A stretch of 35,069 nt of DNA from positions 1 through 35,069 of the forward strand of contig JAVZCK010000020.1 of the NCBI GenBank assembly GCA_038874435.1, given 5' to 3'. Origin of the DNA: Thermoplasmata archaeon. GTDB lineage: Archaea; Thermoplasmatota; Thermoplasmata; Lutacidiplasmatales; SKW197. This document shows positions 1 through 6,194 of the stretch, in pieces. The notes beneath the pieces are model-generated. The model was not told the DNA's origin and made no database searches. It saw only the letters and a list, made by a program, of their open reading frames with translations. Position 1 is the first letter of the stretch. Each line of letters opens with the position of its first letter. The translations under genes and the position numbers were made by a program.

Positions 1-165
1 GGTGAGACTTCAATTGGGAATATGGATGCATGGAGACATTACTTAGAAAAGAGAGGGTGTCCCATCTTGCTCCAAATGGGACACACCGCGAATGCTTCCT
101 TTCTACCCAAGGAGGTTTTTATATGCCACTCCCAAATAAAGATTTGTAATGGCTATTCTTTATGA
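1..165 (+). CDS. possible 3' end of an unrecognised upstream gene (partial)
   Basis: Frame 1 is open from the first base of the window to a TGA at 163-165. It encodes about 54 residues of mixed composition (W, C, H, M and G all present), including the stretches NMDAWRHYLEKRG and LLQMGHTANASFLPKEV, which read like real protein rather than a shadow frame. I do not recognise the family. The frame runs past the first possible start of the downstream giant gene (149) and overlaps it by 17 nt. It also runs through a 9-bp inverted repeat at 57-84, which could argue against coding. The gene start lies outside the window. Confidence 0.35.
   Translation, partial: GETSIGNMDAWRHYLEKRGCPILLQMGHTANASFLPKEVFICHSQIKICNGYSL
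57..84 (+). repeat. perfect 9-bp inverted repeat (stem-loop)
   Basis: GTGTCCCAT at 57-65 is exactly complementary to ATGGGACAC at 76-84, with a 10-nt loop. It lies just ahead of the promoter region of the giant gene. It could be an RNA hairpin near the end of the upstream transcript, an operator, or chance within a coding frame. No T-run follows, so it is not called a terminator. Confidence 0.4.
116..124 (+). promoter_or_regulatory. TATA box for a leaderless start at 149
   Basis: TTTTTATAT lies 25-33 nt upstream of the ATG at 149, the archaeal TATA-to-start spacing for a leaderless transcript. A second TATA-like element, ATTATAAAA at 195-203, sits before the alternative ATG at 245, which also has purine-rich GGAGAAGG at 226-233. 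The two candidate promoters match two candidate starts. Confidence 0.4.
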
Positions 166-3100
166 CCCTTTAATTGGATTCCATTCCACCCCAAATTATA
201 AAAACAAGTATGCATTAGGAAGCGGGGAGAAGGATGTGATTCGCATGGACGAACTTAACGCCAGGATTGAAAGGTTCAACAAAATTTTGGAGAAATACAG
301 AGAGATTGGATTTAAAGTGGGAAGTTTTAATCCGAATGCACAGAGCCATGTACCGCTCCAGGAAAGATATGAGAATTTTGAGAAAATCATGAAGGACAAT
401 TTAAAGGCAATGATCGTGCACGAACTTGTAGAATTTGAGAGACAGTTAGACAACATAAAAAGGATGGGAATCAACATAACCCCAGATATTAGGATTGCTC
501 AGGAACTAGATAAAATTTGTGAAACAGGTGAAGTTCTTTCAGAGGATGTAGCTGCAAAAACAGGTTTACTTAGAAATGAAATAAAGAAAGTTGACGAGGA
601 AATTCATCATGAGACAGATAAATTGATAGAAAAACTCAAAACAATAGAGAAAGACCTCGAAATTCTACCTGATGGTACCAAGCAGGAATTGCTGCCTCAG
701 ATTAGAAGAGCATATGAAAGATTTGAAGCCAAGAGATATTACGAGGTATGGTTCAACGCAAGGAAGGTTATAGCAGAGTATGAAGGCAAGATGTTTGGTG
801 GGATTCTGGCACAGCTCAATTATCTCACCTCCAGAGTAAATTCTTTGAAGAGCATAGGTGCAGATGTGCGAGAGGCGGAATCCCTTCTAATCCTAGCAAA
901 GGCACAGTTCGAGGGCAGGGAGATTGACAAAGCCCAGCAAACAATTGAAAAATGCACAGCAGTCCTTGACAAGAAGGAAAATGAAAGCATAGGACAGAAC
1001 ATAGAGAATTTCGAGAGATTTCTTGCTAGAGCAATGGAAGTAATATACATCGAACCATCAGTATCTGAAAGGCTAGCTTTACTGAAAGAGGAGGCAAGAA
1101 AAGGAAACTATGAGTTTGCAGCCAATGGATTGAAAAAAGAAATTGCAGAGCTAGAGCATGCTCTCAATATCACGATAACGAATTTGAACAATGCATGGGA
1201 AAGGGATAGAAATGCAGCTGAATTCTATGGAATTCAGGTAAATTTGCAAGAATGGAAGATTCTTCAAAACATGCTCAATGTGGATAAAATTGATGGAATA
1301 AAACAGATACGGGAATTTTTGCTTAAGCTTGAAAAAGAAATAGAGAAAAAGCGATTTGAAGCCCAGAAAACTACTGCACTCACTGTCTCCCAGCCACCTC
1401 CAACACCAATCCCTTCTCCACAAGCTGTTCCTCAAGCTACTCCATTACCTACTCCAACTGTCTCTTCACAACCCTCTCAAACTCCACCAGTTCAAGCTGT
1501 GCCCGAGGCAAGGGTAGAAATCCTTCCTCCTGTAAAACCAGTGGAAGCTGCAGGAGAAACGCAGCCCGCACAAATAGTTTCACCTCAACCGCAGGTTAGC
1601 CAGGACATGAAGACAAGAATTGACAATTTCAATCTAATTCTCGCAAAGTACATGGAATCAGGAGTAAAGCTTCGACTCTTTGATCCCACAGCGCCAAGCA
1701 AAGTTCCAATCCAGGAGAGGTTTGAGAATTATGAAAAACTCATGCAAAACAACTTGAAAGCATTTTTGACACACACCCTTATTGACTATGAAAGAAACAT
1801 AGACAACGCAAAGAAAATAAATCTAGTTGTGGAGGAAAACCCCGCACTTGCCGCTGAAATTGAAAGGGCAGTGGAAACGGATGGGGTTCTTTCAATGACT
1901 ATCGCAGAGAAAGCAAGCACTCTGATGGAACTCACTAGAAAAGCCCAGAACAGGATAGAGAGAGTTGCAAGAACTGCAATGGAGGATATAGACAAAATTG
2001 AGAAGATTCTCTCAGAATTGCCACTAGAAAGGGAATACATAAATGCCCAGATTAGCAAGGCAAGAGAAAGGTTTGAGGGCAAAAGATATTACGAGGCATA
2101 CCTATATGCAACAAAGGTTCTAAAGGAGATAGAGGGAAAAACATTTGGACTTTTGATTCCTAGAATTGAAAGGGCAGGAAAATACATATCTGAGCTCACT
2201 ACTCTGGGAATGAATATCTCAGATGCAGCAGAACTTCTGAGAAATGCAAAGGAAAAATATGATGCTAGAGATTTTGTAAGAGCGAGCGAATTAATGGATG
2301 CATGCGAGAAAGAGATTCACAAGATAATTACAGCTAACATTAGTGCAAGCGTGGAAAAATTTGAGAATTATGCGAAGGAACTTGACAAAATAATGAAACT
2401 TGATGTGGATATATGGCTCAAAATTGAGATGATGAAGAAAGCCGTAAATGTTGGGAACACAGACGAGGCGAGGGAACTCCTAAACATGGAAATGGAGAAA
2501 CTAGAAGGAAAGGTTTCAGCATTTGTAAATACATTGATGCAATCTCTTCGCAATACAATGGAATGTGCTTCTCTTGCTGGGAAGAAAATTGAAGATGAGG
2601 CGCTAGAGGGTCTGAGAAAAGGGATTGAGCAGAACAGGGTCGAAGGAATAAGAACTACAATAGATTTCTTAAATAAATTGCAAGCAGAACTTCGGAAAAT
2701 GATGGCCGACAAGCTCGAAGAAGTGGAACACCTGATGAATGAAGTGTATGATACAGAAAAGAAGACGAAGTTTATGGAAAGCCTGAGGGTGTTAGTTGAG
2801 AAAGCGAAAACAGTTGCATTCATATCTGAGCAGTTTTCTGAATGGCATGGGGAATATGGAAAACTGCAGGCAGAGGTGAAGCAGGAAATTGAGCAGGAAA
2901 TTCTACCAAAACTTGAAGAATTGAGAAAAGACCTGAAGGTGCTGGTAAATTCCAATTTCAAAGTGGATACAGCTGGTAAACTTCTGAAAGAACTATCCGT
3001 GCTGATTTCCGAGAAAAAACTTGAGGAAGCAGGGAAATTCTATGAAGCTAGAAAAGAGGAGATTGCAGCACTCATCAATGACTTTATAAGTGAGCAGCTT

Positions 3101-5890
3101 CAGCCGATCTACCAAAAAATCACAGAAGTTGAAATATACAGAATAAATCTGGAGGCAGAGAAGGAAGAGGTGAGAAATCTTGCAACTTCCTGGAAAATTG
3201 GTCATCTAGAAGAACTGAATCAGAAGATAGACGAGCTGAAGAAAAACTATTCTGAAAAACTTAACGGCATAATCAAACAAAAGATCGAAAAGGCAAAGGA
3301 AAACATCAGTTTGCTCTACGAGTTTGAATTTGGTGGGAAGCCAGATATTTATGAAGAGTACATCAAGAACGCTGAGACCTGTTTAGGTAAGGGCGAAAGA
3401 GGTGATGCTCTCAGAAACTTGATGAATGTCGGCGAGGTTTATGGGCGAATCAGAGCAAGGATTTTAGCTGGCACTGAGGAACTTCGTGCAAAGGCAGTAA
3501 CGCTAACTGAACTGGGTGTAATGATACCTGAGATTCCAGACATTATTCTCAAAATCAACGAAGAAATTGATGCAGAAAACTTCCACCAGGCAAGTAAAAT
3601 TCTGAAAGAACATTTAACAAAATTCGAAACAATGCTGCAGGAAAAGATTGCCTTGGACATAAAGAGTATTGAAGAAGCAATAGGTGAATTAAAGAAATTT
3701 GGGTATGTGAGTGAAACCTTAAGCATTGCGTATGACATGGCAAGGAATTTGAGTGCTGAAAAAAAGTACAAAGAAGCAAAGGTCTTTATTGTTCGCTGCC
3801 GTACATTGATTTCCCAAGAAAGCATGAAGGTCTTTGAAAAGGAATATTCTGAGGTTACCCAGATGCTTAAAGCTGCCTCTTCAAGAGGGATAGATACGAT
3901 TGCACCTAATGCCTATCTCAACAATTTTCGGAGAGAAATTGGGAGCTTGCACTTCCATCAGGCAAGATGGTTCATAGAAACAGCAAAAAGAATGCTAGAT
4001 GAAGAGATAAAGAAGGTTGCAAAAGCAGAGCTGCAGGGCTTCTCCGATGTGATAAATCTCTACTCCCCAATTTTTGGCAAGGAGTTCTTTACGAATCTTC
4101 AGAAAAAGCTCGGCGTAATACTTGAACTCTATCAGACAGGGAAGTATTTGGAGTGTATTGACAAGGCAAAAATGACAAAGGAGGAGATTAACCTTACATT
4201 ATCAGAAAGAATAAGAAAGGAGCTTGAAACTCTCAGAACCTGGATAGAAAAATTTGAGAGATACGGAATTGATTTTGATACAGTGAAGTCCACCATGGCA
4301 GAGTGCAATGCATATCTGGACTCTGAGAAAATCCAGGAGGCACTTTCCAAGTTGAAGGACGCAAAGAACAACATTGTCCAGATACTTACAGAATTTTTGA
4401 GAGCAAGATGCGAAGATGTAGAGGACTTAATGCACACTTCTGAAAAAATGGGTGGAAACACTGCAAAATATAAGGACTCTATAAATAATGCTAGACATTT
4501 GATAGACGAACAGGAGTTTATAAATGCAGTTAACATCATTGATGCAGTTGGAAAGGATGTGGCCTCCCAGCTCCACTCTCTGGTTTACCGAAAAATCCTT
4601 GACATTAACGCAGGAATTGCTGCACTCACAGAAAGTGGAGTTGTAATAGATGAGGAAGTAAAGAGACACAGAGATGCTAGTTCTACTGCCCTTGCCTCTG
4701 GTCAGTATTTTGAGGCAATGCACGAAGCAGAACTTGCAAGAGGTTTCCTTGCTAAAAATATAAAAACATATGTGTCTGAGAAACTGAAGGAGACCACGAA
4801 TCTTCTTGAAACAGGCAAGGTCACTGGCTGCGAAATGAAAGAGACCACAGCGCTGCTTTCCGAAATGGAGAATGCAATTACAACAATTGACATTACGAAG
4901 GTAAGTGTACTCCTCAGGCAATTAGAGACCGTACCAAAGAATGAACTCGAAACGCATCTAAATAAACTCATAGCTGAAACCACTGAGATTGCAGCTGTGC
5001 TTAAAGAGCATGGTGCACCGCACGAAAGTGCAAAGGAAATTATCCAGCATGCAACCAATCAATTAATCTGGAAGAACTATGCAGAGGCATACTATTCAAT
5101 TCAGAGGATAAGACCATTGCTCATAGGGGAGTTGAGAGAAAAGGTAAAGCAGGAACTTGAGAAATATGAGAAAATTGCCCAGACACTTGACAAGATTGGT
5201 ATATCATCTGAAGAGATTATGGAAAGAGTTGCCAAAGGCAAGAATGCAGTTAAGGACGCAACAGTGAATGAACTAATCACAACATTGAACGAGATCAGGA
5301 AAATGGTAGAGGAGATTAATATCAAAAATGCAGAGGTATTGAAAAAAGATACAGAACGGCTCATAGCGATAATTCAGATTGAGCTTGCAAAATGGGATAA
5401 ACTTGGCCTGGAAACAGGTGAGTTTTACGCAATGGTTAGGAAGCTTGGAGAGTTGTTCAATGCACATAACTATCTTGAAGCGAGTGCACTCGCGCAGACA
5501 CTGGATGATGGGTTTACAAAAGCAATGGAATATCGCGTTAGAGAGGTCATGGAAAATGTGAAGCAAAAACTTGCGTTAGCCAAAAAACTGGGTGTGCAGT
5601 CAGAGTACAATGTGGAACCCCTTCTCAGTTTTGCTGGTTTCCACTCGAAAGATAAAATGGAGGATGTGTGTGTTCGCCTCCTTGAAATCGAAAAAATGCT
5701 AGATGTGGAAAACCTGGTAAAGGTAAAGGCACTTTATGAAGAAACAGATAGAATTGTGCGTTCAGACCCATCTGCTCCTCAGGGATATCTAATTGCACTA
5801 GAACGTGCTAGAACGATGATAAATACGGGTAAATATCTGGAGGCGTATGTCCTCATAGAACGCTGCCGTAACCTGATTACACAGTCATAA
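149..5890 (+). CDS. giant all-helical repeat protein, unknown function
   Basis: 1913 residues, very rich in E, K, L, A and I, with no signal peptide, membrane segment, P-loop or enzyme motif that I can see. Residues about 36-405 and 487-860 are a tandem duplication: ERFNKILEKY is matched by DNFNLILAKY and VPLQERYENFEKIM by VPIQERFENYEKLM. They are joined by a Pro/Gln/Thr-rich linker at about 410-485. A short helical-hairpin motif (A-x(5-7)-[GKN]-x-[YF]-x-E/Q-A, then often I-x(2)-C/A-R-x-L) recurs about every 60-65 residues, near 188, 250, 313, 638, 699, 760, 948, 1075, 1135, 1196, 1260, 1320, 1385, 1445, 1508, 1633, 1762 and 1886. This suggests a long TPR-like or spectrin-like rod, possibly a scaffold (inference). 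The start is uncertain: ATG 149 gives the longest form, but ATG 245 has its own TATA and a purine-rich RBS and begins just before the duplicated block. Automatic annotation may call it SMC-like, but it has no ATPase head. Confidence 0.85.
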   Translation: MAILYDPLIGFHSTPNYKNKYALGSGEKDVIRMDELNARIERFNKILEKYREIGFKVGSFNPNAQSHVPLQERYENFEKIMKDNLKAMIVHELVEFERQLDNIKRMGINITPDIRIAQELDKICETGEVLSEDVAAKTGLLRNEIKKVDEEIHHETDKLIEKLKTIEKDLEILPDGTKQELLPQIRRAYERFEAKRYYEVWFNARKVIAEYEGKMFGGILAQLNYLTSRVNSLKSIGADVREAESLLILAKAQFEGREIDKAQQTIEKCTAVLDKKENESIGQNIENFERFLARAMEVIYIEPSVSERLALLKEEARKGNYEFAANGLKKEIAELEHALNITITNLNNAWERDRNAAEFYGIQVNLQEWKILQNMLNVDKIDGIKQIREFLLKLEKEIEKKRFEAQKTTALTVSQPPPTPIPSPQAVPQATPLPTPTVSSQPSQTPPVQAVPEARVEILPPVKPVEAAGETQPAQIVSPQPQVSQDMKTRIDNFNLILAKYMESGVKLRLFDPTAPSKVPIQERFENYEKLMQNNLKAFLTHTLIDYERNIDNAKKINLVVEENPALAAEIERAVETDGVLSMTIAEKASTLMELTRKAQNRIERVARTAMEDIDKIEKILSELPLEREYINAQISKARERFEGKRYYEAYLYATKVLKEIEGKTFGLLIPRIERAGKYISELTTLGMNISDAAELLRNAKEKYDARDFVRASELMDACEKEIHKIITANISASVEKFENYAKELDKIMKLDVDIWLKIEMMKKAVNVGNTDEARELLNMEMEKLEGKVSAFVNTLMQSLRNTMECASLAGKKIEDEALEGLRKGIEQNRVEGIRTTIDFLNKLQAELRKMMADKLEEVEHLMNEVYDTEKKTKFMESLRVLVEKAKTVAFISEQFSEWHGEYGKLQAEVKQEIEQEILPKLEELRKDLKVLVNSNFKVDTAGKLLKELSVLISEKKLEEAGKFYEARKEEIAALINDFISEQLQPIYQKITEVEIYRINLEAEKEEVRNLATSWKIGHLEELNQKIDELKKNYSEKLNGIIKQKIEKAKENISLLYEFEFGGKPDIYEEYIKNAETCLGKGERGDALRNLMNVGEVYGRIRARILAGTEELRAKAVTLTELGVMIPEIPDIILKINEEIDAENFHQASKILKEHLTKFETMLQEKIALDIKSIEEAIGELKKFGYVSETLSIAYDMARNLSAEKKYKEAKVFIVRCRTLISQESMKVFEKEYSEVTQMLKAASSRGIDTIAPNAYLNNFRREIGSLHFHQARWFIETAKRMLDEEIKKVAKAELQGFSDVINLYSPIFGKEFFTNLQKKLGVILELYQTGKYLECIDKAKMTKEEINLTLSERIRKELETLRTWIEKFERYGIDFDTVKSTMAECNAYLDSEKIQEALSKLKDAKNNIVQILTEFLRARCEDVEDLMHTSEKMGGNTAKYKDSINNARHLIDEQEFINAVNIIDAVGKDVASQLHSLVYRKILDINAGIAALTESGVVIDEEVKRHRDASSTALASGQYFEAMHEAELARGFLAKNIKTYVSEKLKETTNLLETGKVTGCEMKETTALLSEMENAITTIDITKVSVLLRQLETVPKNELETHLNKLIAETTEIAAVLKEHGAPHESAKEIIQHATNQLIWKNYAEAYYSIQRIRPLLIGELREKVKQELEKYEKIAQTLDKIGISSEEIMERVAKGKNAVKDATVNELITTLNEIRKMVEEINIKNAEVLKKDTERLIAIIQIELAKWDKLGLETGEFYAMVRKLGELFNAHNYLEASALAQTLDDGFTKAMEYRVREVMENVKQKLALAKKLGVQSEYNVEPLLSFAGFHSKDKMEDVCVRLLEIEKMLDVENLVKVKALYEETDRIVRSDPSAPQGYLIALERARTMINTGKYLEAYVLIERCRNLITQS

Positions 5891-5930
5891 GGGCTCGTGG
5901 GGTAGTCTGGATTATCCTTCAGGCCTTCGG

Positions 5931-6147
5931 AGGCATCCTTTTCAGGAGTTTACGCTCCCGAAAAGCATGCATGGAAAAACCCTTTTGTTCGCTAACGCTC
6001 GCAAAAGCGTTCACGGAAAAAAGGGTCGGTTTGGGGATGCTGAAAGCATCCCCTTAATGCGGGTACCGTAGGGTGCATACCCCGACCGTAAGGGTGCCAA
6101 CCCTCGGGGGTTACCGTAAGGGGGTGAAACCCCCTCGCTTGGAGGAA
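5931..6147 (+). other. large structured intron in tRNA-Arg at position 37/38
   Basis: The intron interrupts the anticodon loop after G37, the canonical archaeal site. The splice region shows part of a bulge-helix-bulge: loop bases CTTC (5925-5928) can pair with GAGG (6142-6145), leaving three-base bulges GG^A and AA^A around the cuts. The inner intron helix next to it is not obvious. At about 217 nt it is long for a non-coding archaeal tRNA intron. It has no ORF of useful length and no visible homing endonuclease. It is packed with hairpins: TTTTC-A-GGAG/CTCC-C-GAAAA (5939-5964), AACGCT/AGCGTT (5994-6011) nested in ACCCTTTT/AAAAGGGT (5979-6026), GGGGATGCT-GAA-AGCATCCCC (6033-6053), then three related hairpin units (6065-6137). 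GGTCGG (6024-6029) can also pair with CCGACC (6082-6087). Confidence 0.8.
6065..6137 (+). repeat. three tandem degenerate hairpin units inside the tRNA intron
   Basis: Three units share the plan ACCGTA(A)-G-run-T-loop-A-C-run-(T)CG: 6065-6084, 6085-6106 (directly abutting) and 6113-6137. Each has its own G-run/C-run stem: GGGT/ACCC with loop GCAT, AGGGT/ACCCT with loop GCCA, and AGGGGGT/ACCCCCT with a GAA loop. The flanking ACCGTA is retained while stem length and loop change, and the stem arms change together. Confidence 0.75.
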
Positions 6148-6194
6148 AGCCTGAGACCCGGGTTCGAATCCCGGCGAGCCCGCAAAACACTTAA

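Follow-up and report, generated by a model that had tools for sequence, protein, structure and literature searches.

Introns of five tRNA genes in a Thermoplasmata archaeon consist of a dispersed hairpin repeat

The window analyzed here, a stretch of 35,069 nucleotides from the genome of a Thermoplasmata archaeon (G000, 95% complete), encodes a tRNA-Arg(UCG) split between positions 37 and 38. The 5' exon (positions 1 to 37) lies at 5891 to 5930 and the 3' exon, which runs from A38 to the discriminator G73 and does not encode CCA, at 6148 to 6182, both on the forward strand. The intron between them, also forward, occupies 5931 to 6147 (217 nt), and a BHB scan placed its cut sites at GG^A (5930|5931) and AA^A (6147|6148). 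The spliced exons form a 75-nt molecule that ARAGORN called as tRNA-Arg(TCG), and the same program found no tRNA in the unspliced window. A clean split with an insert of about 217 nt had been described by the first-pass annotation, and its coordinates proved exact; it had also taken the insert to encode no endonuclease, and indeed no ORF of 80 aa or more, and hence no candidate homing endonuclease, was found inside. Upstream, a 1913-aa ORF (149 to 5890) with a repetitive, helical-looking product ends in a stop codon that abuts the first base of the tRNA gene.

The intron is made of hairpin modules, which were delimited on the forward strand mostly by comparison with the other copies of the repeat described below. 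Module A, present as the variant CCTTTTCAGGAGTTTACGCTCCCGAAAAG of a consensus form CCTTTTCAGG...CCGAAAAG, lies at 5937 to 5965 and was also recognized from the folds of its variants. Module A2 (CCCTTTTGTTCGCTAACGCTCGCAAAAG, 5980 to 6007; general form CCCTTTTGCTCG...GCAAAAG), supported by repeat matches as well, is related to the hairpin of a 23S rRNA intron. Module C (6033 to 6053; form GGGGATGCTGAAAGCATCCCC) is the 9-bp stem with a GAA loop already picked out by eye, which recurs in most copies of the genome and covaries among them. It is followed by two modules of type E (form GGTTACCGTAAGGGG...CCCCTCG), ACCGTAAGGGTGCCAACCCTCGG at 6085 to 6107 and GGTTACCGTAAGGGGGTGAAACCCCCTCG at 6109 to 6137, the latter providing the motif behind our collection scans. 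The dense folding noticed earlier exceeds chance, both for the intron (z = -4.7) and for the complete pre-tRNA (z = -6.3), with none of 200 shuffles as good in either case. The long-range GGTCGG/CCGACC helix fared less well: it can be read in the letters, but no predicted fold contains it and most other copies lack CCGACC, which leaves it unsupported.

When the genome was searched with the window insert, many more matches were obtained, at about 70-97% identity. A census by sequence searches with the insert and two further queries placed the repeat at 21 loci in G000. It occupies five tRNA introns and an intron in the 23S rRNA, directly abuts the 3' end of a tRNA gene in three cases, and is intergenic in about twelve. 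At least 10 loci were found in Thermoplasmata archaeon SKW197 (G001), the only known genus-mate, both genomes being draft assemblies. The tRNA genes adjoined at their 3' ends (tRNA-Cys, Leu-UAA, and Leu-UAG) are the same three in the two genomes. Of the first guesses about the insert, a host for hairpin elements thus came nearest, to which we can add that the insert is assembled from copies of a hairpin repeat that is dispersed in the genome and also found in four other tRNAs, a point that had been overlooked. Module order and number vary between copies. The core motif was restricted to G000 and G001 among 389 genomes of the phylum, and among 84,980 species it occurred in SKW197, besides a single Verrucomicrobiales match that we attribute to chance; these scans used exact patterns, which diverged relatives could escape. 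A viral origin was considered, and two exact patterns gave no match in viral contigs. Likewise, Rfam searches of 16 loci, meant to reveal copies inside further RNA genes of known type, returned only the 23S rRNA and an unrelated tRNA. When an empty site was sought for one intergenic copy (C16:40577), its flanks proved to fall at the ends of two contigs in G001. Three intergenic copies come after the ends of a protein gene that is itself multi-copy, these ends being near-identical, and gene duplication thus probably accounts for part of their spread.

Short palindromic units found in many copies between genes (12 of the 21 loci) and in both orientations relative to the neighboring protein genes are what is expected of REP- or MITE-like repeats. 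A non-autonomous element of this kind, with a transposase acting in trans, may have landed in short BHB introns that already existed, where it would be harmless since it is cut out. The tandem and nested copies, the intergenic spread, and modules that are palindromic on both strands agree with this account, which we consider quite possible, if somewhat short of an even chance. It is weakened by a search of the 95%-complete genome with PF01797, which found no Y1 (IS200/IS605) transposase and thus no REP/RAYT pairing. Moreover, no target-site duplication or constant 3' end of the repeat was identified, and the identical insertion sites in five tRNAs would require five pre-existing introns.

These five sites are shared by the two genomes, in which the repeat always interrupts the same tRNAs at 37/38. 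In G000, the introns measure 217 nt in Arg-UCG, 384 in Gln-CUG, 190 in Gln-UUG, 457 in Glu-UUC, and 425 in Glu-CUC; the corresponding lengths in G001 are 186, 184, 204, 175, and 207 nt. Once spliced, all 10 host tRNAs were read as normal tRNAs by ARAGORN. Since no other Gln, Glu, or Arg-UCG tRNA was seen among the 44 tRNA matches of the 95%-complete G000, including the second intact tRNA-Arg(UCG) that the first-pass annotation had named as grounds for refutation, splicing of the five host tRNAs is probably essential for the life of the cell. The same observations make it very improbable that we are looking at dead, interrupted tRNA genes or at assembly artifacts. Draft genomes and repeats that break contigs could produce such artifacts, but all five sites, with their exons intact, occur in two separate genomes and no replacement tRNA copies were seen. 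Among relatives of the order, tRNA-Glu is intronless, and in several the two tRNA-Arg exons directly adjoin each other; as judged from these gene comparisons, the lineage of G000 and G001 has most likely acquired the introns.

Other tRNA genes of these genomes are interrupted as well. The intron of tRNA-Gly(CCC) (G000 C5:36539) is a plain hairpin starting with GGAACC, GGAACCTTTCTTAGAAAGAAAGGTTC, and was enlarged by internal duplication in G001 (C55). Introns in the T arm were found in tRNA-Ala(CGC) (C23:32132), tRNA-Arg(CCG) (C31:7126), and tRNA-Lys(UUU) (C17:334), all common to the sister genome; those of tRNA-Ala(CGC) and tRNA-Lys(UUU) have good BHB motifs, and the latter gene also bears an insert in the D arm. 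Downstream of tRNA-Arg(CCG), there are repeated partial copies of the tRNA 3' end (TCCCGACGGGCCCGTTATATTCTGTTTTGCCCGTC), as integration events leave. A CRISPR array was noted at C13:21588 (repeat GTTCCAGTCCCCTTTTCATCGGGTTTTGAC).

A splice motif is present at every host tRNA site, ranging from canonical through near-canonical to relaxed. The best one, in Glu-UUC of G001, is fully canonical (CTTT-CG^A-GGAACCC ... GGGTTCC-AGAG-AA^A) and has a 7-bp intron-side helix, which shortens to 2-4 bp in Gln-UUG, Gln-CUG, and Glu-CUC of G000. The tRNA-Arg(UCG) of the window has no intron-side helix in the canonical register. Its central 4-bp helix, formed by CUUC (5925 to 5928, positions 32-35) and GAGG (6142 to 6145, followed by the AA^A bulge), was recovered by the BHB scan and the fold, both strands being forward. 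This agrees, as regards the CUUC/GAGG helix and the 3-nt bulge on the 3' side, with the partly visible BHB reported before. At the 5' site, the best cloverleaf fold has no 3-nt bulge and the helix runs through a G.G mismatch (CUUC-G-GAG with CUU-G-GAGG). The cloverleaf containing the CUUC/GAGG helix lies only 0.6 kcal/mol above the free optimum (-142.3 versus -142.9). Read by eye, the orthologue in G001 takes this form too, its letters changed in a compensating way (CUUC-G-GAGG with CCUC-G-GAAG), and motif and fold support the earlier suggestion of a relaxed BHB substrate for both genes. In total, the 5' site is relaxed in 3 of the 10 host tRNAs. The EndA of this genome is encoded by one 352-aa ORF with two PF01974 domains, collinear with the homodimeric enzyme of A. 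fulgidus, as expected of a splicing endonuclease. Endonucleases of the alpha2 type have been reported to require a canonical BHB (PMC4033280; PMC12397907). There is therefore a conflict between the relaxed splice motifs and a genome whose sole detected EndA is of this supposedly strict type.

The repeat apparently still moves or undergoes conversion within each genome. For 30 of the 31 copies of G000 and G001, the best match was a paralogue in the same genome and not the orthologous site. The Glu-UUC intron of G000, for instance, is 93% identical over 236 nt to an intergenic copy, while its match to the orthologue covers only 78 nt (88%). Because copies match best within their own genome, against flanking DNA that is mostly about 74-83% identical between the two species, these comparisons indicate that intron and intergenic copies either exchange sequence or were inserted anew once the species had diverged. 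Compared between the species, tRNA-Cys and tRNA-Leu(UAA) have traded their downstream flanks, with the switch falling exactly at the repeat, which looks like a trace of recombination.

Strong folding and compensatory changes would also be expected if the introns were functional RNAs (guides, regulators, or stable circles) kept for their structure. In hairpin C, 96.7% of the pairs are kept and nine cells are double-changed versus 3.7 in shuffles, and the inner stem of hairpin A varies in a compensating manner. Nevertheless, in most copies, that of the window among them, folding of the reverse strand is at least as strong, which fits a palindromic DNA element, so folding by itself does not show an RNA function. 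Both orientations are found among the intergenic copies, orthologous introns differ widely in the modules they contain, there is no Rfam match, and the window intron has neither a C-box-like motif nor a C/D box pair. A functional RNA, one of the first guesses for this insert, is accordingly improbable and finds little support here.

A different origin is suggested by the ends of the copies and by the rRNA. Most tRNA copies open with (A)GGAACCC or GGAAACC right at the splice junction, and the first letters of the intergenic and tRNA-3' copies are nearly the same. Inverted-repeat ends of the form GGAACCC...GGGTTCC, which a MITE would carry constantly, were confined to some of the tRNA introns. 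In the 23S rRNA gene of G000 (C8:29500-32000, about 1124-1200 of that piece), a 47-nt insert corresponds to a minimal repeat module, a single hairpin with, by inspection, a canonical BHB (GUUC-AC^A, GAAC-AU^A). The 23S gene of G001 has the exact empty site, its exons being contiguous as GTTCACATCGACC. Either the intron was gained in G000 or it was lost in G001, and the intact empty sequence of G001 favors a gain. The family may accordingly have begun as a short tRNA intron hairpin like that of tRNA-Gly(CCC), which then reached other tRNAs, 23S rRNA, and intergenic DNA in the form of excised introns or of intron DNA. Such an origin would account for the shared beginnings of the copies, including those of the tRNA-Gly(CCC) introns, which grew by duplication in G001, and for the perfect BHB of the minimal 23S hairpin facing an empty sister site. 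We hold it as possible, if tentative, since no reverse transcriptase was found in the genome and the intergenic copies are without the 3' splice part. In line with the latter, BHB-like motifs were no commoner around intergenic copies than with shuffled flanks when spliceable copies were looked for. In its most explicit form, a BHB-spliced hairpin element would insert into anticodon loops, 23S rRNA, tRNA 3' ends, and intergenic DNA without a homing endonuclease; we regard such a spreading archaeal intron as doubtful, and it would be the archaeal counterpart of eukaryotic introner elements.

What we favor, with a probability of about 0.8, is that BHB introns removed by EndA were colonized by, or founded, a dispersed palindromic repeat. 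On this view, the window insert is a tRNA intron of the archaeal kind, placed at the canonical 37/38 site, which should be excised by the tRNA splicing endonuclease, with the exons presumably joined by the archaeal ligase. Its body consists of copies of a lineage-specific, modular, palindromic repeat rather than of private intron sequence. Copies in one genome would exchange or re-spread sequence, which would lengthen and renew the tRNA introns, and all that selection preserves would be the ends complementary to the exons, which make up the splice motif. We infer that the repeat is mobile, and these data suggest that tRNA introns of archaea can be spreading repeats themselves or grow out of them. 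The origin and spread of archaeal tRNA introns are an open question, to which the present case adds a direct tie between intron sequence and a family of dispersed repeats. Both the recent difference between sister species in the 23S intron and the apparently ongoing exchange between introns and intergenic copies bear on how introns spread, in a cell whose Glu and Gln tRNAs, apparently the only ones it has, would rely on splicing.

Our literature search, with subscription journals mostly outside its reach, found no report of tRNA introns built from a dispersed intergenic repeat, and novelty is not claimed as proven. The introns resemble the EndA-spliced archaeal BHB introns at 37/38 in their position, exon structure, central helix and 3' bulge, and in interrupting single, essential-looking host genes. 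They differ in length, the five host introns spanning 175-457 nt versus 11-129 nt for published archaeal tRNA introns (PMC4090602). Unlike in known BHB introns, the body is made of dispersed repeats and the 5' site is relaxed in part of the hosts despite an alpha2-like EndA. In Thermoproteales, large-scale intron transposition has been inferred, with the mechanism unknown (PMC4090602; PMC4033280). As in our case, genomes are known in which different tRNAs carry similar introns. Here, however, the sequence is also intergenic, adjacent to tRNA 3' ends, and in 23S rRNA, and the introns are hairpin arrays in a member of the Thermoplasmatota with an alpha2-like enzyme. In Caldiarchaeum, a mobile element has been tied to tRNA disruption (PMC3293823). 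The two cases share the link between tRNA introns and repeated, recombining DNA at tRNA genes, whereas here there are no integrase gene and no tRNA fragments, but many loci and palindromic modules. Finally, short palindromic modules that are intergenic, multi-copy, and clustered recall the REP/MITE-like repeats of bacteria and archaea, from which the present family is set apart by the lack of a detected Y1 transposase and by its occupation of introns in tRNA and rRNA genes.
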